DNA of 43,608 bases. Origin: a virus. Under the pieces are notes generated by a model. It worked only from the letters and a program-made list of their open reading frames with translations, was not told the origin of the DNA and made no database searches. A program made the translations under genes and the position numbers. This document shows positions 7,320 through 40,612 of this stretch, piece after piece. Location: positions 1 through 43,608 of the IMG/VR virus record IMGVR_UViG_3300020057_000060; one strand, written 5' to 3'. Within the stretch, counting starts at the first letter, position 1, and the number at the start of each line of letters is the position of its first letter.

Positions 7320-7781
7320 ATGAGCCGCCCCTTCAAGCGCATCGAGAGCGAGTATTCGCCGCAGCAGATCGCGAAGCTGCACATCCGGCAGGTCATCGAG
7401 GGTATCTGCGCCGACGACCTGATCCTCTGCGAAGTCGTCGCCCAGGGTGAGAAGGTGTGGCGGGCAACGATGCGGGAAGCGTTCGCACCAGTCATGGACC
7501 TGCCGGACGAAATCTGCGACAGGGCCTATCTGTTTTTCTGCGGCGCGGTGCAGGCGCGGTTCACGCTCGACCAGGATCACGCGGAGGCCATGCACCTGGC
7601 TGGCGCGTTCCTCGACCAGGTGGAGCCCGTGACCCCGCCCACGCAGGCCGAGATCGACAAGTCGTGGGTCATCGAAGAGGCGAGCCACCCGGACGCGATC
7701 CGCCAGCAGTACGGCGACAAGTCCCCGCAGCAGTGGCTGGACGAGGCCATCGCTGACGGCCACGACAAGGGGATCGACTGA
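7320..7781 (+). CDS. Hypothetical protein between tRNA and portal gene
   Basis: The product is 153 residues, mainly helical and acidic (EVVAQGEKVWRATMREAF, then RFTLDQDHAEAMHLAGAFLDQ), with no recognised family. ATG 7320 lies eight bases after the tRNA CCA end; a longer in-frame reading would overlap the tRNA and is rejected. It ends in an ATGA overlap with the portal gene, suggesting a packaging or head role. No strong ribosome-binding site is visible inside the tRNA end, so translation may depend on tRNA processing or be weak. Confidence 0.65.
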   Translation: MSRPFKRIESEYSPQQIAKLHIRQVIEGICADDLILCEVVAQGEKVWRATMREAFAPVMDLPDEICDRAYLFFCGAVQARFTLDQDHAEAMHLAGAFLDQVEPVTPPTQAEIDKSWVIEEASHPDAIRQQYGDKSPQQWLDEAIADGHDKGID

Positions 7782-10549
7782 TGGCCACCACTCCAGGGCG
7801 CCGGCCCCCGTCGCTCCCCCGCATCGATCCGGTTGAGGGCACCAACAACGCCTACGGCGTGGACATGGTCAGCCGCGGCAGAGGCGACTACGACGCGATC
7901 GTGGAAGCCGGCGGCGACCCAGACGCGACCCCCGTCACGCCCGACGAGATCGCCCGCGCCGACGCCCTCCGCAAGCGGCACGCCCGCGCTATCCGCAACT
8001 TCAAGACCTCGAGCAGCGCCGACGAAGACCAACGCCGCGCCGAACTCGACGACCTGAAGTACGCGCGCGCCCGCCTCGAGGACCACTGGACGGCTGGCGA
8101 CATCACGCGGCGCAGCGGCGAGACGAATGGCGAGTCTGGCAAGCCTGGCTACGGTCGCCCCATGCTGGTGCTCGACAAGCTGGCCGTGCCGAAGCGGCAG
8201 ACGATGAACGAGGCCCGCAACGCGCGCCTCAGTATCCGCATCAAGGCGAAGGCGGGCCGGGCGACGAAGAAGAACGCCCAACTGGTGCAGGACGCGGTGC
8301 GGGCCATTGAAGTCGACAGCCGCGCGCACATCGCGCGCGACTGGGCCCTCGACCGCGTGATCACCTGTGGCCGCGGCTACTACCGCATCGAAACGAAGTA
8401 CGCCAACGACAAGGACCGCGACCTCGACATCGTCGTCAGTCGCATCCTGAACCAATTCGCGGTCTACCCGGACCCCTGGCGCAAGGAGCCGGACGGCTCG
8501 GACATGAAATTCTGCCTCATCACCGAGGACATCCCGACACGGGACTATCCAGACCGCTACCCGGACAGCAAGCTGGCGCTCAAGATCCGCAAGGCGCTCG
8601 ACGAGCAGACCGATGGCGAGATTCTGGCCGGGTCGGTAGTGGAAGACGGGACCGACGCGCAGCACGAGGGCGGCGCGCTCACGGGCACCGGCGACACGCC
8701 GCCCGGCTGGATTACCGAGGCCACCATCCGCGTCGCCGAGCACTTCTATGTGGAGTACGAGCGCCGCACCAAGCTATGGGTGCCGACCAGCCAGGGCCAT
8801 CAGGAGATGTGGGCCGACGAGATCCCGCCGACCGTCCAACTCCCGCCCGACGTCCTGAAGCGCGAGATCGTCACGCCGGTGGTCAAGTGGGAAGTGCTCA
8901 ACGGTGAAGAAATCCTCGACGAGGAGCAGTGGCCCGGCCGCTTCATCCCGATCGTGGAAGTCGTCGGCGAGGAACACAACGTCAACGGCGAGCGGACCTT
9001 CAAAGGCATCTACACCGTGGGCAAGGACGCGAATCGGTCCTACGAGTATCACCGCTCGGCCCAGGTCGAAGCCGTGGCGCTCGCCCCCCGCGCGCCCTAC
9101 ATCGCCGCCGAGGGCCAGACCGAGCTCTATCCGGAGTGGGACACGGCGAACTCCGAGAATCACTCGGTCCTGGTCTACAAGCCGACGAGCCACGACGGCC
9201 ATCTCATGCCCCCGCCGCAGCGCAACACGTCTGAGCCGGCGATTCAGGCGATCACCATCGCCGCGCAAGCCGCCGACCAGGACATCAAGGACATCACCGG
9301 CCGGCACGAAGCGTCCCTCGGCCAATACTCGAGCGAGCGCAGCGGCAAGGCGGTGCAGTCGCTCCAGCAGCAGGCCCAGGTCGGCAGCTCGCATTTCCTC
9401 ACGAACCTGGCCGAAATCTCGATGGCCTACGAAGCGCGCATCATCGTGGACCTCCTGCCCCACATCTACGACCGCCCCGGCCGCGTCATGCGCTTGCTCG
9501 GTGAGCGCGACCAGGAGGAGTACGCGATCGTCGGCGCCCCCTTCGTCCAGACCCCGGACGGGCCGCAAGCCGTGCCGGTCCCCCCAGGCATGCCGCCGGA
9601 GGGCATGGTCGGCCAGTCGGTGCAGATGCCGGGGATGGCGAAGCCGCAGCGCACGAAACTCTACACCTTCGACGCCGACGCCGATTACACCATCGCCGTG
9701 GGCGTCGGGCCAAGCACGCAGAGCGCGAAGGACCAGAACAGCGAATCGATCCGCGCCATCATGGAAGCCGCCCCCGCCCTCGCGCCGCTCATGGCCGACC
9801 TGCTCGCCTCGCAGATGGAAGGCGACATCGCGGAGCAACTGTCGGCCCGCATCAAGGCGGTGCAGCCCGCAATCGCCAACCTGCCGGGCGACGAGGACGA
9901 CGACTCGGGCATGCCGCCGGAGGCGATGGCGAAGATCCAGGGTCTCACCATGCAGTTGCAGCAGATGCAGCAGCAGCTCCAGGAGGCCATGACCGAGATT
10001 CAGACCCGGCGCAGCCAGTACCAGACGCAACTGATGATCGCGCAGGAATCCAACGCCTCCCGCGAGCGCACCGTGCTCGCCACGACGCGCACGCAACTGG
10101 CCATCGCGCAGATGAACGGCGGCGGCAAGGTGGACGTCGCCACGCTGCAGGGCGAGATCGACGCCGCGATGGGCGAGTCGCAGCAGGCGCACGACGTCCT
10201 CATGGCCCGGCTCGAGGCGTCCCTCGAAGCGCAGCTCTCCGAGGACCAGGACCAGCGTGCCGCCCGTGCCGGCGACCGCGACGAGACGCGCGCGGTGCGC
10301 GGCGACGTGCGAAAGGAATTGATGGCCGGCAGCGCGGCGAGTCGGCAGCGCGCCCTTGCCCGCGAGCAGCGCGAGGGCGACGAGCAGCGCGCGAGCCGCG
10401 ACGGCGTGCGACAGGACGTGCAGGCCGAGCGCGCCGACGCGCGGAAAGGCGCCCTCGCGGCAGCCACCGACCGCCGACAGGCCCAGATCGCCGAGGCGGC
10501 CACTGGCCGGGAGGCGCGCGCGACGAAGCCGAAAGCGGCAAAAAGTTGA
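7781..10549 (+). CDS. Portal protein, P22-like, with long C-terminal helical tail
   Basis: The 922-residue protein forms the dodecameric ring through which DNA enters and leaves the capsid. The N-terminal two-thirds fit the P22-like portal family: KTSSSADEDQR, a conserved helix near ARNARLSIRIK, then CGRGYYRIETKY, FAVYPDPWRKEP, and an active-core region around DIKDITGRHEASLGQYSSE. P22 gp1 is about 725 residues, so this one is long. The excess is a Gln-rich helix (LTMQLQQMQQQLQEAM) followed by about 120 very charged Arg/Asp/Ala residues, which could form a long barrel/coiled coil inside the head. It is coupled to the preceding gene by ATGA. Its TGA stop lies in a promoter-like TTGACA. Confidence 0.92.
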   Translation: MATTPGRRPPSLPRIDPVEGTNNAYGVDMVSRGRGDYDAIVEAGGDPDATPVTPDEIARADALRKRHARAIRNFKTSSSADEDQRRAELDDLKYARARLEDHWTAGDITRRSGETNGESGKPGYGRPMLVLDKLAVPKRQTMNEARNARLSIRIKAKAGRATKKNAQLVQDAVRAIEVDSRAHIARDWALDRVITCGRGYYRIETKYANDKDRDLDIVVSRILNQFAVYPDPWRKEPDGSDMKFCLITEDIPTRDYPDRYPDSKLALKIRKALDEQTDGEILAGSVVEDGTDAQHEGGALTGTGDTPPGWITEATIRVAEHFYVEYERRTKLWVPTSQGHQEMWADEIPPTVQLPPDVLKREIVTPVVKWEVLNGEEILDEEQWPGRFIPIVEVVGEEHNVNGERTFKGIYTVGKDANRSYEYHRSAQVEAVALAPRAPYIAAEGQTELYPEWDTANSENHSVLVYKPTSHDGHLMPPPQRNTSEPAIQAITIAAQAADQDIKDITGRHEASLGQYSSERSGKAVQSLQQQAQVGSSHFLTNLAEISMAYEARIIVDLLPHIYDRPGRVMRLLGERDQEEYAIVGAPFVQTPDGPQAVPVPPGMPPEGMVGQSVQMPGMAKPQRTKLYTFDADADYTIAVGVGPSTQSAKDQNSESIRAIMEAAPALAPLMADLLASQMEGDIAEQLSARIKAVQPAIANLPGDEDDDSGMPPEAMAKIQGLTMQLQQMQQQLQEAMTEIQTRRSQYQTQLMIAQESNASRERTVLATTRTQLAIAQMNGGGKVDVATLQGEIDAAMGESQQAHDVLMARLEASLEAQLSEDQDQRAARAGDRDETRAVRGDVRKELMAGSAASRQRALAREQREGDEQRASRDGVRQDVQAERADARKGALAAATDRRQAQIAEAATGREARATKPKAAKS

Positions 10550-21916: not shown

Positions 21917-24900
21917 ATGCCGACCCGCCCACTTGACCCGTTCGACGTGGCTCGATCGATGGGACTCGCCGTCGAAGACGACACGCCGACGCTTGAGACG
22001 CACGACCAGGACTGGCAACGCCAGTCGATCCTGGCTGGCACGGCTGAGATGCGCCCGCCGACGCCGCGGCCTGCGGCGCGGACGCCGCGTGTGGACCCGT
22101 TTGATGTGGCCAGGACGATGGGACTCACCATCGAAGAGGACACGCCAGACCCCGACCCGTTCGATGTGGCTCGATCGATGGGGCTCACCATCGAAGAGGA
22201 CACTGATACACTCTCGCTAGATGCCGCGCTGCCTTCCGGGCCGACTCGTGCCGACGATCCTCGCCGCGCTCTACCTGCTGCTGGTGTAGACGAGCCGACG
22301 TTCCAGGCGTGGTACGGCCAGCGCGCCAAGACGCTCGGCCTCGACCCCAACCCCGACGCCCCCGAGCAGTCCTACGACTACCGCGCCGCCTTCGCGGCCG
22401 GCGCCGAGCCAGGGCCGGACGGCCACTGGCCATCGGCGTTCAAGAAGCCCGGACACCCCAACGAGGTCGTGGGCGGCTTCAATACCCGCACCGGCGCGCG
22501 CGTGCCTGGCACGCCCCGCGCGTCTCGAGACGATCTCGTGCGCCTGGGCTGGGAACCGGACGCGGCGGCCCGTCTCGACGCGACCCAGGAGCCGAGCGCC
22601 GCCAAGTCGATGGGCGACATCATGGGCCAGGCGACGGGCATCAGCCGCGCCCCAGAGCCCCGTGGCGCCCTGGGGACGTTGGCGGACTTCGGCATGTCCT
22701 TGCCGCGTCGCCTTGGCGTTGACCCAGTCATCAGCGCGGTGAAGGGTGCCATCGGCGCTGTGAATGTGCCGGTGGGATTGGCGGACATCGCGACCGGCGG
22801 TCGTGTGGGTCAGTTCCTCGAAGAGACGATCGGCTTCCGCCCCGCCGAGGCCACGAAGATCCTCTCGTCCTGGTATTCCAAGAAGCAGCGCGAGGGCAGC
22901 GCGGCCGTGCAGGCGGCTGATGGTGTGCTCGCTACCGCCGTGGCCGCACTCTCGAACCCCGGCGTGGTCGCAAACACGGTTGTCGAGTCGGCGCCCATGA
23001 TGCTGGCAGGGGGGGCTATCGGTCGCGCTATTCCGTACGCGAGTGCCGGTGTACGTGGCGCGCTCGGGGAGGGCATCGCCTCTGCCGGGAGCGCGGCTTC
23101 ACACACCAGGGAAGGTTCCGAGGATGGCCGTCTCACGGTGAAGCAGTCCGCCCTCGCCGTCGCGACAGGCGCGGCGACGACCACATTCGGCCTGCTCGGC
23201 AATCGCATCGCGCAGTCGCTCGGTATCGCCGACATCGACACCATGATCGCCGCTGGTGCGGCCAGTCCTGTCGCCGCTCGTGGGCTGGCTACGCGTGTGG
23301 CGCTCGGCATGGTGCAGGAAGGTGTCCTCGAAGAGCTGCCGCAGTCGATCTCCGAACAGCTCTTGGCGAACGTCGCTCAGGACCGACCGATCCTTGAAGG
23401 CGTGGACGAGTCCGCCGTGCTCGGCCTGTTTTCCGGTGCTGTGATGGGCGGCGGCGCGAACATCCGCCGTCCTCGCACGGCCGCCGGCGCCCCGCCAGCG
23501 CCGCCCCTGGCCGACCTCGCATCAGAGGCGCCGCCGGCCGGCCCGTCACCCGCTCCCGTCGACGTGCCGCCGGTGGCTCCACGCGGAGCGCCGCCCGCGT
23601 ACGTGCCGACCGACCTAGAGACGCGCAACGTGCGCCGGCTGATGGCCGAGCCCGGCCGCACCACGATCAGCATCAACGATGTGAGCAGCGCCACGGCCAT
23701 GCGCCCGCGTGAGGCAGGCGCCGCGATCGACCAGCTCGAGCGCGAAGGGCTTGTCACTCCGACGTCGCAGGCGGGCACCTACACGCTCACGCAGCCGGCG
23801 CCAGCCGCAGAGGCACCGCCCGCGACGATGCGCGACGCCCTCGGGCCGCTGCCGCCAGGAGTGAGCGCCGAACAAACGCAGCAGTTGACGGCGCTCGGCT
23901 ATGCGCCTGAACGCGTGGCGGCGATGACGCTGCCCGAGGTGCAGGAGGCGCTCCGGACGGGCACGCCTGCCGTGGAGCGGCGTCAACAGCCCCGCGGCCT
24001 TGTCGCCCCAGCCATCGCTGACCCGATGAGCCCTGAAGGGCTTGTGGCGCTTGGCACGGAGTTCATGGAGAACCCTGCGCGGCAGGCGGATGTGGCGTCG
24101 ATGCGGACGGCCACGCGAGCGGAGGCCCCGCCGAGAGAGGCGACGACTCCGGAAGTGCTCGACGCCGCGCCGGAAGACCGCCAACGTGTCGCGGGCACAC
24201 GTCCTGAAGTCCTGGACCGGGAACGTCCTGACCTCGGCATCGACGCGCGAGGCCAAGAGATAGAGGCGCAGGAGCCCATCCCGCGCCAGTCCTACGAGGA
24301 CGACACACGCTGGGAGGACTGGAAGGCGGGCGACACCCTCAAGCTCGTGGATGGCCGTATCGTCACCGTGGCTCGGGCCGCGGCCGATCCCTTCTCCGGT
24401 CTTCAGGTCACGCTCGACGGTCGTCGCTGGTCCGTCAACCAGGAGCTTGTCGAGGGGCGGGTGGATGCGGTTCCGACCGCGGCCACTACGTCCAAGGCCC
24501 CCTCGGAGACGACCACCGACCTGTTGGCGGTGCTCCAAGAAGAACAGGACGCAATGCGGTCAGGGGCGTCGACTGCGACCCTGAAAGAGATCCGACAGCG
24601 CATCAAGCGGATCACCGTGGCGCGCGATGCCGCCGCGTCAGCGACACCGAACCAAGCGGAGACGCCCGCGCTGAAGGTCAAGGTCGGCACACGGGTCACG
24701 ACGCGCCACGGCGCGGCGACGGTGGCACAGATCGCTGATGGTAAGGCGAAGCTGCAGTTTGCGTCCCCGACGAGAACATCAGGAGCGTCGACCTGGGTAG
24801 ACGCGATGTCCCTCAAGCCGTTCGAGCCGGCGCTGGCCGAGAGCACCCCTGCGCCAGTGCCGGACCCCAAGCCCGCCGCGGAGATGACTGACGAGGAAAT

Positions 24901-27900
24901 GGCGGCCGAGATTCGCGCCCGGTTGACGCGGGAAGCGGAGGCCGAGGCGCCGGTCGCGAAGCCTACCAAAGGGGGCCCGCCGCGGAAGACGCGCGCGCCC
25001 AAGGCTGACCCCGCCGAGACGCAATGGGCGGAGGTGCTTGCGTCGGCACGCGCCGTGGACCCGGACGTCGACGAGACGGACCTGCGGGACGAGTACGACT
25101 TCCGCGAAACGCGAGCCTGGGACGAGGCGAAGGATGCCGCCGACGCCGGCACGCTGGTGCTGCTCAAGGAAATCGCGTCCCTGGGCGGCCTCCACGAGAA
25201 GCAGGGCGGACAGGTCGAGGAGCTGTTCCGGCTCCGTCAGGGGCAGGCGTTCGGGGCGGTCGGCGGCGTCAGGGGCGTGCTCTCGATCGACCCGAAGCGT
25301 GGCCTCGCGCTCGACGACATGCTCGATCAGTTGCGCGGCGATGGCCGCTTCAATCAGATCGAGACGACCGACGACATTCTCGAGTTCATCAACACGGTCC
25401 AGATCAAGGGCGTGCCCAAGCCCACGCCGTCGCTCACGGCGCTCGGCGTCACTCCCGCGACCGCGTGGTGGAAGAATCGCCAGCGGCCCGAGGCGGACCC
25501 GGATGCAGGCTTCGCCAACGACAGCGTCGACCCCGGCAAGGGCGACATCAGCTTCGACGGAGACGCGGCCCCAGCCGCGCCTGACGTCGCGCCCACGGAC
25601 GCCACCACGGCCCCTGGCGTCTGGGCGCCGTTCGCGATTGCCCGCGGGACCGAGGTCCAGATCCGGGACAACACGGAACGCGCGTCGATAGAACTCAAGT
25701 TCGACGGCAAGCCGGACGAGACGGTGCGGGCGGCGCTCAAACGGGAGGGGTTCCGATGGTTCGGCCCCTCCAAGACCTGGTATTCCAAGGCGAAGGACCG
25801 ACGGGCACGGGCTGAACGCGCACTGAACGTCACGCCCGCGCCGGCCGCGCCGGCCGCGCCCGCCGAGCGTCCCGTGTCGTCACAGGACGCGCCGGTCACG
25901 CTGATCATCAAACCGCTGTTCGGATCTGACGAGACGAGCACGGTCACGGTCGGCGGTCCCGCCACGACGTGGGGCCATGCGGCGAAGATGTCGCCAGGCG
26001 CCGAAATGGACTGGTGGGCGAACGCTACTGAGGAACTCGGCGCGGTGCGCGCCAGGGCCGGCGCCATCGGTGCAGGCGTCGTCCTGCGCGTGGACAGCGG
26101 GAGCTTCACGCGCGTCTTGGTGTTCGAGCCCGACAACGGCGGGGGCCGGCAGGTCAAACTCGGCGCCGCGCAAGTCGAACCCGCATGGCGCGACGGCAAA
26201 CTCGTGCCGGAGCAGCCGCGGGAGGCCGCGAAGACGCCGAGCAAGACGGGAAAGCCCCCCACGGCCTGGGACGCAATCGGCACCAACGCGGTTGGGCAGA
26301 CCATCTACGAGGATGAGCGCGGCGTGCGCTCGTACGTCGAGAACGGCGTGCGGCAGACCGAAGCGGTGGCGCTGGCGCCGACGCGCGGCGGGACATCCAG
26401 AACTGGACCGACGCCACGGTCCTCGAGCCGGGCGACCGACTGGACGCTGCTGAAGGTGCATCCGTCCGTGGTCGACACGCGCGCCGACCTCGCCGAGGAA
26501 GCCGGCGCGCAGCAGCGCATCGCCACGAGCCGCGCCGAGTCGCAGGCCGCCAGCAAGGCCGCGCTCGCGGAGAAGAAGCCGGTCACGCCGCAGATCACGC
26601 CCGCCAGGGCGCCAGACGCCGCCGCCGCCGCGCCGGCCGTCGACGCCAAGGCCGCCGCGCGCGCCGCGCGCCGCGCCGCGGTGCAGGGCGAGATTGACTC
26701 CGCCGTCGCCGGCATCAAGGCCGAGCTTCGCAAGTCGGGCTCGACGCTGAGCAGCGGCCTGCCGGTCCCCTCTGACGTGCTCTTGGTGCAGACGGTCAAG
26801 CTCGTGCGCGCCTACACCAAGGCCGGGATCATCGACGCACAAGAAGGCTGGGAGAACTTCCAGGAGGATCTCGGCGCGCTTGCGGCGCAGGCTCGCCGGG
26901 CGTTCACGATGGCCTGGGGGATGGTCCACGGCGTGGCCGAGCCCACCCTTGCGGATCTCGGCCCGCAGGCGCAGACTCAGGGAGAGGCACCCAATGACGC
27001 AGCCCGCGAAGATACCGCCGCCGCCGCCGATGAGCCCGCAGGCCAAGGAGATGGCCCGCCAGATCCGCGTGGACGCACTACAAGCGGGGATGAGCCCGGA
27101 TCAGGCGAGGGAATTGGCGGCGTACACGATGACGCCGGCCGACCCCGAGGATCTGACGCCGTACGAGGGACCGCTGGAACCGACTACCGAATAGCCGACG
27201 ACGAAGCGGTCGGCGCCGGCACGCCCTCGGTCAAGATCCGCAATAACCTGGCGGCAATCGCGCTACTGAAGCAGATCGAGGCCGAGCGCCGCGACGCCAC
27301 GCCAGACGAACAGACGATCCTCGCCCAGTACGTCGGCTGGGGCGGGCTCAATGAGGCGTTCCACTACGGCACCAAGACGTACACGGCGCTCCAAGAGGCG
27401 CTGACCGACGAGGAATACGGCGCCGCTCGCGCGTCCACGCCGAACGCGCACTACACGTCGGTCCCGGTCGTGCGCGCTATGTGGGCCGCCGTGGAACGGC
27501 TCGGCATCACCAGTGGCCGCGTGCTCGAGCCGTCGATGGGCGTCGGCAACTTCTACGGGGCGATGCCGGATGCGCTGCGCGCGTCCACGCTGCGCGGCGG
27601 TGTGGAGCTCGACACCATCACCGCCCGCATCGCCAAGGTGTTGTACCCCGAGACGGACGTGCAGGCGCGCGGATTCGAGTCCGCCCGGCTCCCGGACGGC
27701 TTTTTCGACCTCATCATCAGCAATGTGCCGTTCGGGGACTATGCCGTCCATGACTCGGCGTTCCGCGGCAGGCCCAAGGCGCTCAGGTCGTCCATTCACA
27801 ACTACTTCTTCGCCAAGGCGCTCGACAAGACGCGCCCTGGCGGGCTCGTGGCGTTCATCACGTCGCGCTACACGATGGACGGCAACACGGCCGAACATGC

Positions 27901-30900
27901 GACTGTCCGCGACTATCTCGCCACGCACGCGGACCTGATCGGCGCGGTGCGACTCCCAGACTCCGCGTTCAAGGCGAACGCGGGCACGGAAGTCGTCACT
28001 GACATCCTCTTCCTGCGTCGGCGCACCGCGGACCTTCCTGCGAAGGGGGAAGCATTCACACGGTTGGCCGAGAGCGGCGTCGAAGACCCCAACAGCGGCC
28101 AACCGATCAAGATCAACGAGTACTACGTGGCGCACCCCAGGATGGTCGTGGGCCTCCACACCGCCGACGCCAAGATGTGGCGCGGCGGCGGCTACAACGT
28201 GAAGCACGAGGGGGGCGACTTCGAGGCCGATCTCCGCGCGGCGCTGAACCGATTGCCAGCCAACGCCATCACCTACGACGAAACGCCGACCAAGGCCGCC
28301 ACTGAAGACGCCCGCCGCGAGTCGGTGCCGGCCCCGGAGTTCGTCAAGCAAAATGCCTTCGTCCAGCAGGATGGCCGGCTGTGGGTGAAGCGTGGCGACG
28401 AGATGGAGTCGGTAGACGACCTCCCCGACGCCACCAAGGCGCGGATCGTCGGCATGATGGGCGTGCGCGGGGCGGCGAGGTCCACCATGCGCGCCATGCT
28501 CTCGCCCGAGGCCACCGACAGCGCGATCGTTGCCGCGCAGAAGACGCTGAACACGGTCTACGACGCCTTCGTCAAGAAGTTCGGGCACCTGAACGACCGT
28601 GCCAATGAAGAGGCGTTCGACGAAGACCCGGATCTTCCGCTGCTGATGTCCCTCGAGAAGACCCACGGCCAGGGGAAGCCGCCGACCAAGGCCGCTATCT
28701 TTACCAGGCGCACGCTGTCGCCCCGGAAGGACGTCACGTCGGCCGAGTCGCCAAAGGAGGCCCTCCTTGTCTCGCTGAACAACACCGGGCGCGTCGACCT
28801 GTCGTTGATGGCGCGGTTGACCAGTCAGTCAGAAGACACGGTTGCGGATGCGCTGGCGGGGATCATCTACCAGACGCCTGGCGGCGTGTGGCTGACGGCC
28901 GACGACTACCTGTCTGGCCCCGTGCGGCAGAAGTTGGCCGAGGCCGAGGCCGCGGCAAAGATCGACCCCAAGAAGTTCCAGGCGAACGTCAGCGCGCTCA
29001 CCGCGGTGCAGCCGACGGACCTCGCGCCGGTGGACATCGACGTGCGGCTCGGGTCGGCCTGGGTTCCCCCCGAGGTCTACAGCCAGTTCGTGACAGAACT
29101 CCTCGAAGTCCGTAGAGACGGCTTCCGCATCACCTATGCCGCCCCGCTGGCGGCGTGGAAAGTCGACCCGACCTACGCCAAGGGCACCAAGAACACCGCC
29201 GCCAATGAAACCAGGTGGGGCACCCCGGAGATCCTCGGCCACACGCTGATCGAAGAGGCCATGAATCTCAAGCTGCCGACCATCTACCAGAAGGACGGCG
29301 AAGGGAAATCGTCGGTCAACCAGGAACGCACCGTGGCCGCGCGGGAGAAACAGCAGGCCATCAAAGACGAGTTCGCCAAGTGGATCTGGAAGGACACCGC
29401 TCGCGCCACCATGCTCGCGGACATCTACAACCGCGACTTCAACAACCTCCGGCTGCGGTCCTACGACGGGTCGCACTTGCAGTTGCCCGGGATGTCCGCC
29501 GAGTTGACGCTGCGACCGCACCAGAAGACCGCGATCTGGCGCGTGCTGCAGTCCGCCAACACGGGACTCGGTCACGTCGTCGGCGCCGGGAAGACATTCG
29601 AGATGATCGGCGCGGCTATCGAGTTGCGCCGGCTGGGGATGTCCCGGAAGCCGATGATTGTGGTGCCGAACCACCTTGTGTCGTATTGGGGCGCGGAAGT
29701 GCTGCGGATGTATCCCACGGCCAACGTGCTCGTGGCCACCAAGGCCGATTTCGCGGGCGGGCAACGCCAACGCTTCATGTCGCGCATCGCCACCGGCGAT
29801 TGGGACGCCGTCATCGTGGCCCATCGGTCGTTCGAGTTCCTGCCGATCTCAGACGAGGCGTTCAACGACTACTTGAAGGACCAGATCGCAGAGTACGAGA
29901 GCGCCATCGCCGACGCAGCGGCCGCCACCGGAAAGAAGTCGGCGAGCGTGAAGCAGATGGAGAAGGCGAAGAAGAACCTCGAGGCGCAGATCCGCGACCA
30001 GCGAGACGTAGAGGACCAGGACAAGACGCTGACGTTCGAGGAACTGGGCGTGGACAGCCTCTTCGTCGACGAAGCGCACATGTTCAAAAACCTCCAATTC
30101 GCCACGAAGATGACGCGCATCGCCGGCCTGCCGACCACGGGCTCCGATCGCGCCTTCGACATGCGCTTGAAGGTGCTGCACATCCAGCGCCTCAAGGGCC
30201 GCACCGTGTTCGCGACCGGCACGCCGCTGAGCAACACGATGGCCGAAATGTTCACGATGCAGCGGTACCTGCAGCCGGACGACATGCGCGCGTCGGGCAT
30301 GGCGCACTTCGACGCCTGGGCACAGCAGTACGGGTCGGTCGTGGTGTCACAGGAACTCGCCCCCGAGGGCACCGGCTACCGCTCGCGCACCCGCTTCGCC
30401 CAGTTCTCGAACCTCCCCGAGCTGCTCACCATGTTCCGGCAGGTGTGGGACATCGTCACGGCCAAGGACGTCAAACTTCCCACGCCGAGAATCAAGGGCG
30501 GCACGCCGGAAGTGGTCGCCGTGGAGCCGAGCGCCGCCATGAAGCGGCTGATGCAGAGCCTTGTCGTGCGTGCGGCGGCGCTCCGCGGAGAACCGGTCAC
30601 GGTCAACGGACTGACCTTCACGCCAGCGAAGCCCGATGCCAAAGACGACAATATGCTGATGGTCACAGGGGACGGGCGCAAGGCGGCGCTCGACATGCGG
30701 CTACTCGGCCTGGGCTCGCCGCTCGAGGCGTCCACGAAGGTGCGTGCGGCCGTCACGCGCATCTCGGACATTTACAAGGCGAACACGCGCCGCAAGGGCG
30801 CCCAGCTCGTGTTCCTAGATCAAGGCACGCCAGGAAAGAAGAAGGGGAAAAGCTTCAACCTCTACGCCGACTTGCGCGATCGGCTCGTTCGCGACGGTAT

Positions 30901-33900
30901 CCCGCGCGACCAGATCGCGTTCATCCACGACGCCAAGAGCGACGACGACAAGCTCGCGATGGTCGAGAAGGTCAACACGGGCGAGGTCCGTATCCTCATC
31001 GGGTCGACCGAGAAGATGGGCGCCGGCATGAACGCGCAGAAGAAGCTCGTCGCGCTCCACCATCTCGACGTGCCGTGGCGCCCGTCAGACATTGAACAGC
31101 GCGAGGGGCGGATCATCCGCCAGGGCAACGAGTTCTACGACGCCGACCCAGAGGGCTTCGAGGTCGAAGTGCTCCGCTATGTCACCAAGGAGTCCTTTGA
31201 CGCCTACTCGTGGCAAACCCTCGAGAGCAAAGCCAGGTTCATTGAGCAGGCCATGCGCGGAGACATCACGGTCCGCAGGGCCGACGACGTTGATGGCGGC
31301 GCGCTCACCTATGCCGAAGTGAAGGCGCTGGCGTCCGGCAATCCAATGGTGATCGACAAGGTGAAAGTCGATGCCGAGTTGCGGAAGCTCGAGTTGCTGG
31401 AATCCGCGCACAAGCGGGAACGGTGGCTCACCCAGCGGGAGGCCAGCGACCTCCCGGAACGTATCGAGGGAATCACGCGGACGCTGGCCGGCGTCAAAGC
31501 GATCCTCGCCGCCCGCAAGATCCCGGACACGTTCACCATGACGATTGGCGGCACGACGTTCGACAAACGAGACGAGGCTGACAAGGCGTTTGTCAAGGCC
31601 ACCGACAGCGCGCCCCAGGTCGCCCGCGTCATCGCCACCTACGCCGGGCTGAACATCAGCGCCAGGCGATACAGGGGCGAAGGCTCGGGCGGCACGACAG
31701 TGAACATCCTATCGGTGTACTACGGCACAGGCAGCCACCGCGAAGACACCGGCGACACCGTGCGGTCGATTGAGTTCTCGGTGAAGCACCGCGTCGAGGA
31801 ACGGATCGACTCGCTCGAAAACGAATTGCAAGAGGCGCAGAAGAAGAGCGCCGACGTGGCGGCGTTGCTGGCGGAGCCGTTCGGGAAGACGGCCCGCATG
31901 GCCGAACTCGTCATCGAACAGAAGCGGCTGGCCGCGTTGCTGAGCCTCGACGTCAAGAGCCAGACGCTCGCCTCAGATGTCGAAGACACTGGCGGCGCCA
32001 CGACCGGCACGTCCGAAGACGCGGCCATCGGCGTGTTCGCCCAGAGGAATCCCAGCCAGCGTGTGAGCCTGCCCGTGGCGCTGGTGCCAGTGCGTCAGGC
32101 GGCGCCACTCGCGACGATTCAGGGCGATGTCGCACTACCGGAACTGGTGATGTTCGCCCGCGAGCTTGCGCGCGACGTGCGCGTAGTGCGCGGGTTCCGC
32201 AACGCGCTGTCGGGGGCGAAGCACCGATCGGGGCACCTGATCTTCACCGCGGACCTGTTCAAGCCCGAGAACGTCGGGCAGTTGGCACAGATCGTCGCCC
32301 ACGAAATAGGCCACCTAGTGGACTACCTCCCGACCATGACGATGAAGCGCGGCAACGTCCTCGGACGGCTGCGAACGCTCCACCGCTTCATGAAAGCCAG
32401 CTACACCGACGCTGATGGGCGCACCGTGACCAACCTCAAGGTGCGGAACGAACTCAAGAAGCTCTCCGCTGCATGGCGCCCCTGGCCGGACGCCCACGAC
32501 GAGAAGTACCGCGCCTACCGGGACAGCGCCAAGGAGCTGTACGCCGACGCCATCAGTGTGCTGTTCAACAACCCCGAGCAGTTGAAGTGGCACGCGCCGA
32601 CGTTCTATCGGGAGTTCTTCGCCAACCTGGACCAGAAGCCGGACGTCAAAGCCGCCTACTTCGGGCTGCAAGAGTTGCTGTCGGGCACACGCGAGGAACT
32701 GATTGCCCGCCGCCGTCTCGGCGTACAGGGGATGTTCGCTGAAGCGGACACGAAGGCACTCGACCTCGAGGCGTTGCGCCAGGCCGAGCGCCAGAAGGCT
32801 CGCGGGGACTTCGCCTACCGAATGCGGCTCGAGCTTGTGGACAAGAACATCGCCGTGATCGACCGCATCGAAGCGCGTGAGGCGCAAGGGATCGTGCAGA
32901 ACCCTGACGACGATGCCCGCTACTTCCTCAAGGAAATGCGCCACCTGGGCGCGAAGCAGCACGGGTTCCTCAACCGCACCTTCCAGCCGATGAAGGACAC
33001 CCTAGAGGCGGCCGGCGTCTCGTGGAGCCAGTTCGGGGAAGCCCTGATGTACGCGCGCATCGCCAGCGGCGACCGCACGGACATGGCGAACCCCCGCGGC
33101 CTGGACGTGGCCGCCGTGCCGGAGATGCTGGCGGCCGTCCGAGCCGAGCTGACCGACAAGGGCCGCACGGCGCTCGACGCGGCGCTCGCCAGCTTCCGCG
33201 CCGCCGTCAAGGGCGTCTCCAAAGACGCGTTCGACGCCGGGCTCTACACGCCCGATCTCTACGAGAAGATGGCGGAGAACCCGGCGTGGGCCGCATTCCG
33301 CGTCGTGGACTACATGCACAAGGACGTGACCTCGACCGTGCATCACCAGATCGGCACGGTGAAGGACATCCAGAACCCCGCGGACGCGACGATCCTCAAG
33401 TTGCTCGTGACCATCCGCGCCACCGAGTTCAACAAGATGAAAACGGCGGTGTTCGCCTCGATCCCGGACGAGTCCACGCCGGCCATCATGGGCTTTGACG
33501 GCAAAGGCATGAGCCCGAAGCCGCCCGAGGACGCCGCGCTCGAACTTGTGGAATACCGAGAGAAAGGGCGGCGCAAGGGCATGTATGTGCCCAAGGACGT
33601 GGCCGTCGCCATCAACAATGAGAGCATCGGCGGGAATCTTGCGGTGCTCGAGGCCGTGCGGTTCGCCAACGCCAAGTGGTTCCGCCCGGTGTTCACCGGG
33701 ATCAACCTGTCATTCCAGGCGGCGAACCTCCTCCGCGATCTTCAGCGGACGTATATGAACAACCCGGACGCCACGCTCGGGAGCACCTTGAGGAACTACG
33801 CCAAGGCTGTGCCGCTGGCCCGGCAGCGCGCGTTCGGGCCGAGAACGAAGCCCACCGCCAAAAACCTCGCGGTGGCGAAGCTGCTCGCCGACGCGACCGA

Positions 33901-35353
33901 GGCGCGCATTCTCGGCGTGACCATGAACGACCTCATCGCGGGACGGCCGAAGGAAGACAGCCTCGTCGAAGAACTGTTCTCGCAGCACGGCATCAAGCGC
34001 GCGGGTCCGCCAGCCACCGGCCTCACCGGCCCAGTCATGGAAGTGGTCGACCGCGTCGAGAAGCTCGGCAACTTCATCGAAACGCTCCCCAAGGCCGCGA
34101 GCATCTACGAGATGACCTCGGACGGGCGCCAGATCAGCGACCTCGACGCGGCCGAGCGCGCCTTTATCCGCGAGAAGGTGGGCAGTCCCGATTTCCTGAT
34201 CGGTGGCACGCTCAAGCCCATCACGAACGAAGTGGCCCTCTTCTCGAACGCCATCACGCAGGCGATTCGGGCGGACTATGCCATCGCCACGACCAAGGGC
34301 ACCCGCGCTCCGTTCTGGCGCAAAATGGCCGCAGCCGTGATGGTCCCCACACTCCTGACGTTCGCGATCGAGCATCTGCTGGGCGACGATGACGACGACG
34401 ACACCGGCTGGGGCTACGTGCGGCGCATCCTGCGTGGCGTGAGCGAGTACGACAAGACCAACTTCTACATCATCCCGAGAGGGCTGGACGAGCACGGCAA
34501 CAGCCGCTACTGGCGCATCCCGCGATCGGACGCCGGCCGGTTGATCGGCGGCGTGCTCCGCAAGGGGCTGCTCGCGGCCGGCGGCGAGGTCGAGGTACTC
34601 CAGTCAGCCGCGACCGTCTTCGACTACATCACGGGGCAGGCGCCGGGCCTCACGCCGAGTCTGGGCGTTCTGGCTGATACCGGACGGTTCCTGTCCGGCC
34701 AGAACATCTACGACGACTTCCGCAGCCGCGAAGTGTTCAGCCGGGATGAGATGGCGCTGCCGCTGCCCGAGCGCGCCAAGAAGTTCATCGGCTACGAGAT
34801 CCAACAGGTCGGCCCGAGCGCCATCGGCCGGTTCATCGCCGGAGACGCGCGCCCGCGCGACCTCACCACGGGGCAAGTCCTCCTCGAGATGACGCCCGTC
34901 GCAGGCCGGTTCTATCGGATCTCGAACTACGGCCTGATCGAACGGCTCCGCAAGGCCCAGAAGCCCGTGCAGGCGTCCGAAGCGCGCAGCCGGCGGGCCG
35001 AGACGGCGGCGGTCGCTGGCGCTGTGCAGGCGTATCTCAAGAAAGCGCCCCCGTCGCGGACCCAGGCCGCGCAGGAAACCCTGGCGCGCAAGGTCGTCAA
35101 GGAACTCTACGCAGACCTTCCCCAGCGCGAACAGGACGAGCAGTTCCGAGACGTGAAGAAGAAGATCCGCATGGGCGCGGCCCGTGGCGGTCACGACCCA
35201 GTCACCACGGCAGTGCTGAGCGCCCAGACCACGGCCCAGCGCGTGGCGATCATCGCCGAAGCCTTCCCGTCGGCCGCACGCCGTCGCGCGTGGGTCCAGC
35301 GCGCGGTGCAAGAGAAGGTCATCACCAAATCGGTCGCGCAGGCGGCACAATGA
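21917..35353 (+). CDS. Giant polyvalent virion protein: N6-methylase, DarB-like helicase, metallopeptidase
   Basis: The 4478-residue protein carries, in order: three copies of a [11 protein letters not shown] motif (7-96); [16 protein letters not shown] (about 153-180); hydrophobic segments (about 334-515); a winged-helix-like segment (about 570-616); a [17 protein letters not shown] module (about 1233-1294); an N6-adenine methyltransferase with GWGG, motif [14 protein letters not shown] (1869-1881) and NVPFGDY (1936-1942); an SF2/SNF2-like helicase with VGAGKT (2555-2560), DEAH (2718-2721), ATGTPLSNT (2766-2774) and [10 protein letters not shown] (3061-3070); HEIGH (3462-3466) with downstream Glu3540; and an LPD38-like end with a membrane-like segment near 4133. 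The methylase-helicase pair resembles P1 DarB, a virion-packaged antirestriction protein, but the whole is about twice as long. Burkholderia phages of the Bcep22 type also carry proteins above 4000 residues (from memory). Capsid packaging and ejection are inferred. Confidence 0.93.
21935..22204 (+). repeat. Three copies of an encoded 17-residue motif
   Basis: DPFDVARxMGLxxEDDT/EEDT occurs at residues 7-23, 60-76 and 80-96 of the giant protein (DNA 21935-21985, 22094-22144, 22154-22204). Copies 2 and 3 are almost identical at DNA level and separated by three codons. The motif is Pro-bounded and surface-like, and may be a short docking peptide. Confidence 0.85.
26994..27194 (+). CDS. Small gene nested in another frame of the giant gene
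   Basis: ATG 26994 is preceded by GGAGAGG (26981-26987) at six bases, a strong ribosome-binding site. The 66-residue product (start [19 protein letters not shown], then [30 protein letters not shown]) has normal protein composition. Counting codons by eye, about 80% of its third positions are G/C, against roughly 55% for the giant frame over the same bases, where the giant protein becomes low-complexity (Gly/Asp/Arg/Pro). The coding signal therefore seems to be in this frame. It lies between the N-terminal half of the giant protein and its methyltransferase. A relic of two compensating frameshifts is the main alternative. Confidence 0.6.
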
Positions 35354-36582: not shown

Positions 36583-36804
36583 ATGGAAGAAGGAGTTGCA
36601 GGATGGATCGCCGAATCGCTCAAGTATGGACCCCTCGGGGCGGTGCTCGTCGCGAGCTACTTCCGGCTCTGGATGTGGCGCACGGACCACGTGGAGGCGC
36701 TCGCCGCCCAGACGGCGCTCTACGAGCGTATCCTCGACTTGCAGACCAAGCGCATCAACGACCTGGCACCCGATCGCGATCCGCTCAGAGCGAAGAGGAC
36801 CTGA
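36583..36804 (+). CDS. Small one-helix membrane protein, lysis region
   Basis: The 73-residue product has one likely membrane segment (LKYGPLGAVLVASYFRLWMW, residues about 13-32) followed by a charged helix (ALAAQTALYERILDLQTKRIND). The location just before the endolysin block suggests a holin-type or spanin-related function, but one-helix phage proteins are very diverse. It begins 12 bases after the fibre stop. No family is assigned. Confidence 0.55.
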   Translation: MEEGVAGWIAESLKYGPLGAVLVASYFRLWMWRTDHVEALAAQTALYERILDLQTKRINDLAPDRDPLRAKRT

Positions 36805-36806
36805 CG

Positions 36807-37007
36807 ATGTGGCGGCGCATGGCGGCATGGGCGACGCGGGTGTGGCGGGCACGGGCGACATACACGGCGACGGGGCCGCCCCGGGTGGAATCGGTCGACA
36901 GTGTGGCGTTCCGCGCGGGCATCACGATAGACGAGCGCGAGGCCGAGGAGATGCAACGGATGCTCGACCATATCAATGCGGCGGCGGCGCGAGGGCGGGC
37001 ATCATGA
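36807..37007 (+). CDS. Small basic hypothetical protein
   Basis: The 66-residue product begins MWRRMAAWATRVWRARATYT, an amphipathic Trp/Arg segment that could lie on a membrane. It continues with SVAFRAGITIDEREAEEMQRMLDHINAA, a typical short helix pair. It starts just after the preceding stop and overlaps the next gene by ATGA, supporting translational coupling. The function is unknown; the location is in the lysis block. Confidence 0.5.
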   Translation: MWRRMAAWATRVWRARATYTATGPPRVESVDSVAFRAGITIDEREAEEMQRMLDHINAAAARGRAS

Positions 37008-37528
37008 CGGCGAGGACGCTCGCCACGCCGGCGGGGTGGTCGGTCGTGGCGATCGCCGTGGCGCTGCTCACGGAGCTGATCCCGCCGCCCGGGAATGCGC
37101 TCGCACGATTCTGGCTCCTGGCCACGCTGCTCATTCGGGACATCCTCGTCGCCAAGCACGCGGCAGCGGAGACGGCGCGCGAGTTGGCGGACGTCAAGTT
37201 CGCCCTCCTGCTCGCCAGCACCGCGCGCTCGAAGGAGTTCGCAGAGGCGAGCCTCCGGTTTGCGGACGTGGCGCGGAAGATGGAGAGCGACAAGACGACA
37301 GCGCGGACAGACCTTGAGGCGCAGACCACGACACTGTCGGCGAAGATTGCCGAGGGCACCAAGGCGTCCAAGGAGGCGCAGCGAGAGGCCAATGACGTGA
37401 ACCAGAAGATCGCGAGCTTGAACAAGCGCCTTGTGGACGCCATTCCGCCGCGCGCGCAGATCGACGACATCCAGCAGACCGGCGAAGAGACGCACGACAT
37501 CGTCCTCGGCGCGCTCAAGGACAAATGA
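37004..37528 (+). CDS. Membrane protein with coiled coil (spanin/holin candidate)
   Basis: The 174-residue product has two hydrophobic stretches near the N-terminus (GWSVVAIAVALLTELIPPP and ARFWLLATLLIRDILVAK) followed by a long charged helix with heptad-like spacing (TARTDLEAQTTTLSAKIAEGTKASKEAQREANDVNQKIASLNKRL). A membrane anchor plus periplasmic coiled coil is the layout of inner-membrane spanins, but two membrane segments also suit a holin. It overlaps both neighbours by ATGA, including the endolysin gene. Confidence 0.6.
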   Translation: MTARTLATPAGWSVVAIAVALLTELIPPPGNALARFWLLATLLIRDILVAKHAAAETARELADVKFALLLASTARSKEFAEASLRFADVARKMESDKTTARTDLEAQTTTLSAKIAEGTKASKEAQREANDVNQKIASLNKRLVDAIPPRAQIDDIQQTGEETHDIVLGALKDK

Positions 37529-38052
37529 CCAGCGACGAGATCATCGCCGGCATCGTCGACCGCGAGGGCGGCTTCTCGGACCATCCCAACGACCGTGGCG
37601 GCCCGACGAACCACGGGATCACGGTCAAGACGCTCGGCGCGTGGCGCAAGCTCGGACGCCAGGCCACGCGCGAGGAAGTGCGGAAGCTCACGGTCACGGA
37701 AGCCGCCGACATTTACCGCCACCGCTACATCCTCGGCCCCGGCTTCGACGCCATCACGTTCGAGCCGCTCAGAGTCCAGGTCGTGGACGACGGCGTGTTG
37801 TCGGGCCCCTACGAGGCCACGCAGACGCTCCAGGAGGCGCTCCGGGTGACGGCGGACGGCGTGTTCGGCGGCCGGACCAAGGCTGCGCTCGCCGGCGCCG
37901 ATCCGGCCGTCATCCACATCCGCGTGCTCAAGGCCCGGCTGCTGCGCTACGCGACGATCGTGCGCGACAACCGCAGCCAGGGCGATTTCATCCTCGGCTG
38001 GACGACGCGCGCGCTCGGCTTTCTCGACGATCACGGACTCCCGTCAAATTAA
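37525..38052 (+). CDS. Endolysin, glycoside hydrolase family 108
   Basis: The 175-residue enzyme begins with the GH108 N-acetylmuramidase signature IVDREGGFSDHPNDRGGPTN, where Glu14 is the likely catalytic acid, and continues NHGITVKTLGAW. The second half (LQEALRVTADGVFGGRTKAAL) resembles the peptidoglycan-binding domain usually paired with this family. It would cut the glycan of peptidoglycan after the holin opens the membrane. No signal sequence is visible, so it depends on membrane proteins next door. It overlaps the preceding gene by ATGA and ends in a TAATG context. Confidence 0.9.
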   Translation: MTSDEIIAGIVDREGGFSDHPNDRGGPTNHGITVKTLGAWRKLGRQATREEVRKLTVTEAADIYRHRYILGPGFDAITFEPLRVQVVDDGVLSGPYEATQTLQEALRVTADGVFGGRTKAALAGADPAVIHIRVLKARLLRYATIVRDNRSQGDFILGWTTRALGFLDDHGLPSN

Positions 38053-38081
38053 TGACAGGTAGTGTATTCTCAGGTCTTCAA

Positions 38082-39551
38082 ATGAACATTCCACATATCG
38101 GTGACGACGAAAAGGGCGAACTGGCGCAGGGCTTTGCGGTGATCGAGTGGCACGAGCGCGCCTCACCTGATGGCGCACGCGTGGACTTGTGCATCCGCTA
38201 CGTCGAGGCGCGCCACGCGGGGCAGGGGCACCACGCGGCGCTGCGTTCGATGAACGCGCTGCTGCAGGAGTGGTACCCCGGCTCGGCGCCGCCCTACGAT
38301 GTGCCGGCCGAGCCCGAGCCCCCTCCGCCCCCTCCGCTCCCTGCGCGTGTTGTGCGCCCCCTGGTGGGACAGGTGAAGGCCGAGGGGCGCAGCTTCGGCG
38401 ATGCCTCCGGGCCGCGCCTCGTGCATGGGTACTCGGACTTCGCGCTGCTGCCCAAGTGGCGCGAGAATCCAGACAAGGCCAAGCGCGAGATCGCCAATGC
38501 CTCGCGGTACCAGCAGTACGTCCGCATCCTCTGGCGGCTGAACGGGTGGATGTGGTCGGGCGAGGGCACGCGGTGGCCCAACAGCGGCCTGACGGTGGAC
38601 CCGATCCGCGATGGCTGGTATGACGACACGCTCCGCGAGGTGTTGAGGTTCTGCCACGAGCAAGGCCTGCGCGTGAACTTGTCCACCGGAGACATGAACG
38701 ACTGGTCCGCGGCGCAGGCCGAGGACGGATTCCGGCGCACGGCTCAGATCGCGGCGTCAGTCTCCGCGGACATCTGCTGGCTCGGCGCTGCGGCCAATGA
38801 GCTGCGCGGCACGATGCGCGGCGGGGAGTCCTCGGCGAACATCGCCCAGTGCGAGTCGCTCATGCGGACCTGGGCGCAGCATTACCCGTGGGGGATGCGG
38901 TCCATCAGCGACCCCTACACGCAGGACAAGGCGGGGATGCGGATGCTGTCCGGCGGCAACTCAACGTGCGCGTTGATCCACGATGTGCGGTGGCAGGCCG
39001 AAGATGCGTTGCGCCGATCGTTCAACACGGTCTACGAGAACTTCCCCGGGAAGCCGGTCGTGCAGGATGAGCCCACCGGGCCGAACGGCTCGCCGCCGCC
39101 CAGTGACTTCGCTCGGCACGTCTACCAGCAAACCGAGGATCACGATGTCCTGCTGGCCCTCTACACGATGCACGTGCTGACCGGGCAGGCATCGACCTAC
39201 TTCAACGACCCGGCGCTCGTGAGTCGTGAGCCTATCGATTCGACGTGGGGCTTCAAGGAATTGCCGGCCGCGTGGCGGGCGATGGAGATTCCCGAGGACA
39301 TCGGCCAGGGCGTGTTGAAGCCGGGGCATCACGACGATGCGCCGCTGCAGGTCGTCCCTGGCGGGTCGCCGCGTGCGGATTCGATGGTGCGAGGCGGCTA
39401 CTCGCTTGGCGTGATCTCCGGGGAGGCCCGCTTCGGCATCGCCGGACAGGCCACCGCCTACCGTGCGGGCGGCGTGCTCTGGGAGCGCCGCGTGTTTCGT
39501 GGAGAACGTGTCTCAGTCCCAGGCGCCACGGTCATTCGCATCGTCCAGTAA
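38082..39551 (+). CDS. TIM-barrel-like glycosidase, possible tail depolymerase
   Basis: The 489-residue product has a small N-terminal domain (LAQGFAVIEWHERASPDGARVDL), a Pro-rich linker, and a large region with a glycosidase layout: YVRILWRLNGWMWSGEGTRW, LREVLRFCHEQGLRVNLSTG, WLGAAANELRG (Asn239-Glu240) and VVQDEPTG (Glu330). An N-E pair followed later by a second Glu fits clan GH-A retaining enzymes, though no exact family is identified. The C-terminus is a beta module. ATG 38082 is preferred over 38052 because the intervening codons are AT-rich and unlike the rest. It may attack host surface glycans or serve as a tail enzyme. Confidence 0.6.
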   Translation: MNIPHIGDDEKGELAQGFAVIEWHERASPDGARVDLCIRYVEARHAGQGHHAALRSMNALLQEWYPGSAPPYDVPAEPEPPPPPPLPARVVRPLVGQVKAEGRSFGDASGPRLVHGYSDFALLPKWRENPDKAKREIANASRYQQYVRILWRLNGWMWSGEGTRWPNSGLTVDPIRDGWYDDTLREVLRFCHEQGLRVNLSTGDMNDWSAAQAEDGFRRTAQIAASVSADICWLGAAANELRGTMRGGESSANIAQCESLMRTWAQHYPWGMRSISDPYTQDKAGMRMLSGGNSTCALIHDVRWQAEDALRRSFNTVYENFPGKPVVQDEPTGPNGSPPPSDFARHVYQQTEDHDVLLALYTMHVLTGQASTYFNDPALVSREPIDSTWGFKELPAAWRAMEIPEDIGQGVLKPGHHDDAPLQVVPGGSPRADSMVRGGYSLGVISGEARFGIAGQATAYRAGGVLWERRVFRGERVSVPGATVIRIVQ

Positions 39552-39582
39552 CCCTCGTCCATATTCTCAAGGAGAAACCCTC

Positions 39583-40311
39583 ATGTCACCCCTTCTTGCC
39601 GACGCGCTCGGTTCCCTCTTCCGCTGGGCGCTGGCCCTCGCGGTCCCGTTTTTCGTCAGCCGTGGTATCTGGACGCCGACGCAGGCCGAGGCGTTCGTGG
39701 CGGGGCTGAGTTTGGCGATGCTCGCGCTGGCGTGGTCCCTCTGGCAGAAATATGGCGCGCGTGCCGACTTCGTGAACGCGCTCGAGGCGCCGGCCGGCAC
39801 GTCTGAATCGACCGTCAAGGCGATGGACGCGCCGGACGCACTGGCCCGGAAGGTGGGCGCCGTCCTGGCGGCTCTGGCCCTGGCGGGCGCCATGACCGCG
39901 TGCGCCGGCAAGACGCCCGCCCACACGATTGCCGACGTCGGCGCCCGGCTCACGCCGATCGCCATCGAGGCCCAGCAGACGCTGATCGCAGCCGAGGCTA
40001 CGGGCTTGCGTCAGGAGTATGTCGCGAAAGCCCAGGTACAGTTCCGCTCCCTGGGCCAGACGCTCCAGAAGCTTGCAGCCGCGCTCGACACATACCGCGT
40101 GCTTTCCCCCAGGAGCAAAGAGCAGGAAGATGCTGGGCGCACCCTGGTCACAATCATCGGCGAAGCCCGGCGGATCATGCGGACGGTCATGGTCTTCACC
40201 GGCGGCTCCGAAGCCCTGGCGACCGCATTGAACCGCAGCTTCGACAACATGGAGAAACTCTTCGACCTCATCACCACCGGACTCGCGCCACTCCCGGCGC
40301 CCACCCAGTAG
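39583..40311 (+). CDS. Holin-like domain fused to a lipoprotein domain
   Basis: The 242-residue product has two membrane segments (about 15-30 and 38-54), then WQKYGARADFVNALEAPAGTSE, a pattern I recall from small holin-like phage proteins. A third hydrophobic stretch ends in a lipobox-like sequence (GAMTACAGK, Cys107, codon at 39901), followed by a helical domain (QQTLIAAEATGLRQEYVAKA). A lipobox normally lies at an N-terminus; an internal ATG at 39823 (Met81) would give a typical 26-residue lipoprotein signal. So this may encode both a holin-type protein and an outer-membrane-spanin-like lipoprotein. AAGGAGA (39569-39575) precedes the main start. Confidence 0.6.
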   Translation: MSPLLADALGSLFRWALALAVPFFVSRGIWTPTQAEAFVAGLSLAMLALAWSLWQKYGARADFVNALEAPAGTSESTVKAMDAPDALARKVGAVLAALALAGAMTACAGKTPAHTIADVGARLTPIAIEAQQTLIAAEATGLRQEYVAKAQVQFRSLGQTLQKLAAALDTYRVLSPRSKEQEDAGRTLVTIIGEARRIMRTVMVFTGGSEALATALNRSFDNMEKLFDLITTGLAPLPAPTQ

Positions 40312-40324
40312 GGCAGGATACCCA

Positions 40325-40612
40325 ATGGCCAAGTCACAGACCGCGAAGACGACCCTCGACACCGTGAACACGTTTGCCGAGAAGCTGTTCCCGACCATCG
40401 GCGCCGCGCTCATGCTGCTCCGGAAGATCCGAGAGGCCGCGAAAGCGCGCCGCGACACGGAGGGCGTGAAGACCGCGGACGAGATCGAGGCCCAGCTCCT
40501 AAGCCAGATCGCCCTGATGCGGTCCGGCGGCGAGAAGCTCGAGGCGGTGGCGGACGAATGGTTCGATAAGCATCCCGAGTTCGACCCGAAGACCGGCGCG
40601 CGCCGCCCCTGA
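40325..40612 (+). CDS. Small helical hypothetical protein
   Basis: The 95-residue product has a weakly hydrophobic segment (FAEKLFPTIGAALMLLRKIR) followed by charged helices (TADEIEAQLLSQIALMRSGGEKLEAVADEWF). It could be an amphipathic membrane-associated or structural protein; no family is recognised. It starts 13 bases after the preceding stop, behind GGGCAGGATACCC. A strong stem-loop begins four bases after its stop, suggesting that it ends a transcription unit. Confidence 0.55.
   Translation: MAKSQTAKTTLDTVNTFAEKLFPTIGAALMLLRKIREAAKARRDTEGVKTADEIEAQLLSQIALMRSGGEKLEAVADEWFDKHPEFDPKTGARRP

Follow-up and report, generated by a model that had tools for sequence, protein, structure and literature searches.

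Why should a phage carry, in one reading frame, both a hairpin of holin type and a signal of lipoprotein type? The question is raised by an open reading frame at 39583-40311 on the plus strand of the window, the whole 43,608-base virus record analysed here, which encodes a product of 242 residues. A preliminary description of this DNA had reported a two-helix N-terminus, a third hydrophobic segment and a lipobox-like Cys107 within this frame, and had suggested that one gene may make both a membrane protein and a lipoprotein. Hydropathy and translation confirm the layout: hydrophobic 19-residue stretches are found at residues 8-26, 35-53 and 91-109 (Kyte-Doolittle 1.59, 1.70 and 1.93), and Cys107, the sole cysteine of the protein, sits at the end of the third stretch in a CAGK context. 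The GC content by codon position is gene-like throughout (0.65/0.53/0.83 in the hairpin, 0.77/0.59/0.90 at the junction and 0.65/0.50/0.84 in the tail). The gene is an in-frame fusion of a holin-type hairpin with a lipoprotein-type signal, and its parts are as follows.

39568-39575, plus strand: Shine-Dalgarno sequence CAAGGAGA of the fused gene, 7 bases 5' of ATG 39583, pairing energy -8.5 kcal/mol
39583-39753, plus strand: N-terminal two-helix holin-type hairpin, residues 1-57, from the PF23987 match and the relatives' alignments
39754-39852, plus strand: linker, residues 58-90; in translation, the matching stretch contains the ends of the stand-alone holins
39823-39825, plus strand: internal ATG (Met81), proposed as a lipoprotein start and judged not to be a real start, pairing energy -0.9 kcal/mol
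39853-39900, plus strand: third hydrophobic stretch (residues 91-106), a putative internal lipoprotein signal (Kyte-Doolittle 1.93 over residues 91-109)
39901-39903, plus strand: codon of Cys107, the putative lipidated residue, followed by Ala; the only lipobox-like match on the window's plus strand
39901-40308, plus strand: mature lipoprotein-like domain, residues 107-242, a predicted four-helix bundle in the AlphaFold2 model

Is the hairpin that of a holin? Residues 7-57 of the window protein match PF23987 (Phage_holin_10, the Pam3 gp28 holin family) with 22.6 bits (E 1.1e-4), under the curated cut-off of 27 bits for this model of 52 positions, which spans the hairpin only. The hairpin proteins of six relatives (L002, L024, L026, L027, L028 and L029) all lie above that cut-off, at 28.9 to 62 bits, and in a further profile scan it was passed by all eight of the relatives' records. 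The window hairpin aligns with four relatives at local-alignment Z scores of 13.5 to 26, none of 400 shuffles reaching the observed score; the hairpin of L045 is linked to it by alignment alone (Z 6.5). No PF23987 match was found in eight other records, comprising six phages picked by terminase likeness together with L045 and L032 records. Because its relatives exceed the cut-off, the window hairpin appears to belong with PF23987 through these clear members, which bears out the earlier view of the N-terminus as a two-helix holin. Its putative role would be to form the holes through which the endolysin is released.

Relatives were sought in eight scans of viral contigs and two of GTDB genomes, with search patterns built on a WSLWQKY-type motif, such that relatives lacking the motif were missed; two raw scans each gave at least 20 stretches. 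The hairpin occurs in at least nine viral contigs beyond the window (L002, L024, L025, L026, L027, L017, L028, L029 and L045), representing seven distinct sequences, with L024/L025 and L027/L017 as near-identical pairs. One of the nine, L002, has the fused form. Its 230-residue protein, 43% identical to that of the window over the hairpin, contains an in-frame third hydrophobic stretch (residues 95-113), Cys115 followed by Ala, and a tail of 116 residues; the gene lies near a contig end and is the sole fused relative found. The other eight contigs encode the hairpin as a stand-alone protein, in genes of 79-105 codons. Those stand-alone proteins that can be aligned (L024, L027, L026 and L028) end 6 to 30 residues past a 'PAGT' point, beyond which the fused proteins continue into the linker and signal, and the stand-alone proteins mostly have two helices, the second being followed by basic residues. 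The fusion is present in two distant phages, and since the two tails are not demonstrably related, it could be that there were two separate fusions, or a single old one that has changed rapidly. Among GenBank phage proteins some searches gave no relatives and others matched only at E 5 or more. No relative was matched among plasmids or confirmed among GTDB genomes, no match under E 0.8 was found among PDB sequences, and none above cut-off in NCBIfam. Directly 3' of the stand-alone holin of L024, an open reading frame (L024:687-797) encodes a basic, amphipathic-looking peptide of 36 residues that could be a membrane-active lysis peptide.

The expectation in the preliminary description that homologues might be split into two genes is upheld, both by these eight contigs and by the separate lipoprotein genes found near the hairpin in three of them. 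In L029 the holin gene (613-930) is overlapped in a different frame by a gene for a 123-residue lipoprotein (902-1273, with an LASC lipobox), whose ATG at 902 has its own Shine-Dalgarno sequence (-5.4). In L027 and L017 the holin is preceded by an 88-residue gene, and that gene in turn by one for a lipoprotein. In four (L024/L025, L026, L028 and L045) of the seven distinct sequences, scans reaching 4.5-5 kb from the hairpin gave no convincing lipoprotein; candidates with tails of fewer than 30 residues or without a start (one in L025, two each in L026 and L045) were set aside as unconvincing, and the hairpins of L024 and L045 are near contig ends. The best explanation is that the holin and the lipoprotein are two lysis-region genes that are kept apart in relatives and have been joined here. 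L002 has a second small lipoprotein-like gene (7608-7946), flanked by the Hydrolase_2 gene on one side and the fused gene on the other, that matches phrog_2155 (virion structural protein, E 1.1e-10).

How good is the signal around Cys107? With a loose lipobox pattern, a scan of the 43.6-kb window in six frames gave a single plus-strand match, Cys107, and nine on the minus strand, where no late genes were seen. When the residues after the hairpin were shuffled 20,000 times for each protein, a hydrophobic stretch with a lipobox-like cysteine arose in 102 cases with the window protein and in 198 with that of L002; since only 0.5% and 1% of shuffles reproduce the feature, it is more than chance. 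The charge, core and cysteine pattern is present, as ARK, then 16 uncharged residues, then Cys107. The cysteine that the preliminary description had seen after the third segment is thus there, and L002, the one other fused relative, has a cysteine at the matching place. Both depart from the lipobox consensus [LVI][ASTVI][GAS]C: the window reads MTAC (A-M-T-A-C, with Met at -3) and L002 reads SGGC (Ser at -3, with -2 also off). The signal is internal to the protein and has no supported internal start, where a lipoprotein would have it at the N-terminus. Alanine after the cysteine points to the outer membrane, and Cys-Ala begins the mature part in the window, L002, L027 and L029. The residue that follows the lipidated cysteine helps to decide membrane sorting, according to one paper (PMC8048626), and a survey of spanins records real deviations from the lipobox (PMC6139136).

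The tail, modelled by itself with AlphaFold2 from an alignment of four sequences, is a predicted four-helix bundle (mean pLDDT 67.9, pTM 0.59); a model of the whole protein reached a mean pLDDT of only 44.6, making a fold search with it meaningless. Against the PDB, the tail model found general four-helix bundles (Z up to 13.5, with 985 chains aligned), as is usual for helical bundles, and against BFVD no match reached E 0.001. For an o-spanin, a compact four-helix bundle would be an unusual shape. Family-profile searches gave no family match for the tail sequence, BLASTP did not match it to the L027 lipoprotein, and no hydrophobic 19-residue stretch of 1.2 or more occurs past residue 109. Homology among the four lipoprotein tails is unsupported, with Z of -1.1 to 2.4 for the six pairs (local alignment, 400 shuffles per pair). 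With no demonstrable homology among these mature tails, it is by position and signal that the window's tail is identified, as a probable lipoprotein domain.

The genes on either side provide the context of lysis.

37525-38052, plus strand: endolysin with GH108 and peptidoglycan-binding domains (PF05838, E 3.9e-21; PF09374, E 2.2e-9; phrog_315 endolysin, E 3.5e-34)
40325-40612, plus strand: downstream gene for 95 residues, with its own Shine-Dalgarno sequence (-6.6), starting 13 bases past the fused gene

The endolysin lies 1.5 kb upstream of the fused gene, and in L002 a Hydrolase_2 gene is found two genes upstream. Genes similar in size to the downstream gene follow the lipoprotein in L029, L027 and L002 (the L002 copy being cut by the contig end). 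The homology of the 95-residue product is weak (Z 3.7 with L027, 1.0 with L029 and -0.4 with L002), and because only one of the six possible pairs reaches 3.7, the others scoring -0.4 to 2.2, we claim for this third gene a shared position alone. The window terminase is nearest to that of EBPR podovirus 1 (46.6% identity), and the 423 phage records that match it are mostly named for Gram-negative hosts, eight being named for Arthrobacter; with a host that is probably Gram-negative, lysis has an outer membrane to breach. This probable host, the neighbouring lysis genes and the lack of any other lipoprotein candidate on the plus strand suggest a putative role for the tail in outer-membrane lysis.

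Several other genes of this region deserve mention. The product of 37004-37528 (174 residues), whose gene overlaps the endolysin start by ATGA, has a hydrophobic N-terminal part and then a long, charged, coiled-coil-like part; it is a candidate i-spanin-like protein or second holin, with no family match of weight in Pfam, PHROG or NCBIfam. Upstream of the lysis genes, 36583-36804 encodes 73 residues, comprising a single hydrophobic stretch and a tail that is charged. Between the endolysin and the fused gene, 38076-39551 encodes about 490 residues that look glycosidase-like by eye, with no Pfam, PHROG or NCBIfam match; its close relatives are found on only two contigs, both ending inside the gene. 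A glycosidase-like gene shared upstream of the holin by the window, L027 and L045 was considered, and no synteny is claimed because the alignments (Z 1.5, -0.6 and -0.9; BLASTP E 0.03 over 77 residues) do not support it.

What, then, does the fused gene make? In the reading that we favour, a single chain would be translated from ATG 39583, and its hairpin would enter the inner membrane with both termini cytoplasmic. The linker would remain inside, and the third hydrophobic stretch would export the remainder as a lipoprotein signal does. Host Lgt would then lipidate Cys107 and host signal peptidase II (LspA) would cut before it. The inner membrane would keep the hairpin and a short third helix, and the other product would be a 136-residue helical-bundle lipoprotein. 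With Ala after its cysteine, the latter would pass to the outer membrane and act there in lysis, in an o-spanin-like role. This proposal follows from the fact that a membrane-embedded signal with a cysteine at its outer end is a substrate of Lgt and then Lsp, as set out in PMC8048626. The topology is firmer for L002, whose linker has six K/R and two D/E, and less firm for the window, because there the charge is balanced (five K/R and five D/E over residues 55-90). Taken from uncut chain to split products, with an outer-membrane lysis role, we rate this account at just short of an even chance. It is a more tentative proposal, and on balance improbable, that the protein is a lysis polyprotein in the full sense, its internal lipobox leading through Lgt and LspA to holin and lysis lipoprotein in 1:1 amounts and making lysis dependent on host lipoprotein processing.

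The preliminary description had instead proposed two starts, with Met1 giving a holin-like membrane protein and Met81 a free lipoprotein. Starting at Met81, Cys107 would be at position 27, preceded by 26 codons, a normal length for a lipoprotein signal, and that part of the proposal stands. The corresponding GTG of L002 (GTG88) lies 27 codons before its cysteine, with a positively charged start (KPGAPK), and the L029 lipoprotein does have its own start within the holin gene. The translation signals argue against this reading. Of 249 ATG/GTG codons inside the phage's largest open reading frame, 84% equal or better the pairing of -0.9 kcal/mol at Met81, and GTG88 shows no pairing, whereas twelve ordinary starts from the cassettes under comparison span -2.6 to -13.1 (L029:1276 left out). 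The n-region that Met81 would provide, MDAPDALARK, has no net charge, and at least one ATG is expected by chance in a 21-codon stretch of the fused gene with P 0.41. GTG98 of L002 pairs well (-7.7), yet would give a signal without positive charge. Since neither Met81 nor GTG88 has a Shine-Dalgarno sequence and an ATG is expected there by chance, a single translated chain is probable, and two starts are unlikely; if two products do arise, they more likely come from a host protease cutting one chain. What survives of the idea of two proteins from one gene is the hairpin and lipoprotein-type signal in one frame, without the internal start as the route. The open reading frame that supplied the background codons (21917-35353, 4,478 residues) presumably encodes a large injected virion protein.

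The main rival to the polyprotein model is an uncut polytopic protein, in which the hairpin and third helix are joined to a periplasmic helical bundle and Cys107 is unlipidated, giving a holin whose periplasmic domain would be regulatory or i-spanin-like. The non-canonical lipobox of both fused proteins favours it, as does a third stretch (91-109) long enough for a membrane helix; we nevertheless find it doubtful, given that the two fused proteins and both kinds of separate lipoprotein all have Cys-Ala following a hydrophobic stretch, and that the window's plus strand offers no other lipoprotein candidate. A three-helix holin, with its N-terminus outside, a cytoplasmic C-terminal domain of 135 residues and an irrelevant cysteine, would agree with the three hydrophobic stretches, which lambda-type holins also have, and with the annotation of the hairpin family as holin. 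It is very unlikely, since the linker charges of L002 place the linker inside and the tail outside, and most stand-alone relatives have two helices with basic residues after the second. Least probable of all, and close to negligible, is an assembly or sequencing error that merged two neighbouring genes: these are metagenomic contigs with only two fused cases, but the contigs are independent, their sequences have diverged, the junction falls at a like place and the coding pattern is unbroken across it.

Holins set the timing of host lysis, whose last step belongs to proteins acting on the outer membrane; a single gene seems to provide the two here. Should cutting occur at Cys107, this would be a lipoprotein signal that functions inside a multi-helix membrane protein, with signal peptidase II serving the phage as its polyprotein protease.

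We conclude that the gene combines known lysis parts in a new arrangement, a holin-lipoprotein fusion; among literature titles and abstract openings, a coverage that takes in few subscription journals, no such fusion and no internal lipobox was found. Residues 7-57 match nearly the entire 52-position model of PF23987; beyond that, the window protein has an internal signal of lipoprotein type and a further 136 residues. Two-component spanins of the Rz/Rz1 type, as described in the spanin survey (PMC6139136), likewise provide a phage lipoprotein near holin and endolysin, as here with a probable Gram-negative host, and their overlapped or embedded genes are paralleled by the overlapping genes of L029. 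The window differs from them in having lipoprotein and hairpin in one frame, a tail predicted to be a four-helix bundle, and a partner i-spanin that is at most a candidate. The unimolecular spanin T1 gp11, in the same survey, likewise has a lipoprotein signal and a membrane helix in one gene. In u-spanins, however, the lipobox is N-terminal and the helix C-terminal (PMC6139136), whereas in the window protein this order is reversed and the tail lacks a membrane helix at its C-terminus, setting it outside that class. Even if the protein is uncut, the holin-lipoprotein fusion joins the known layouts of lysis modules, beside the overlapping pair of L029.
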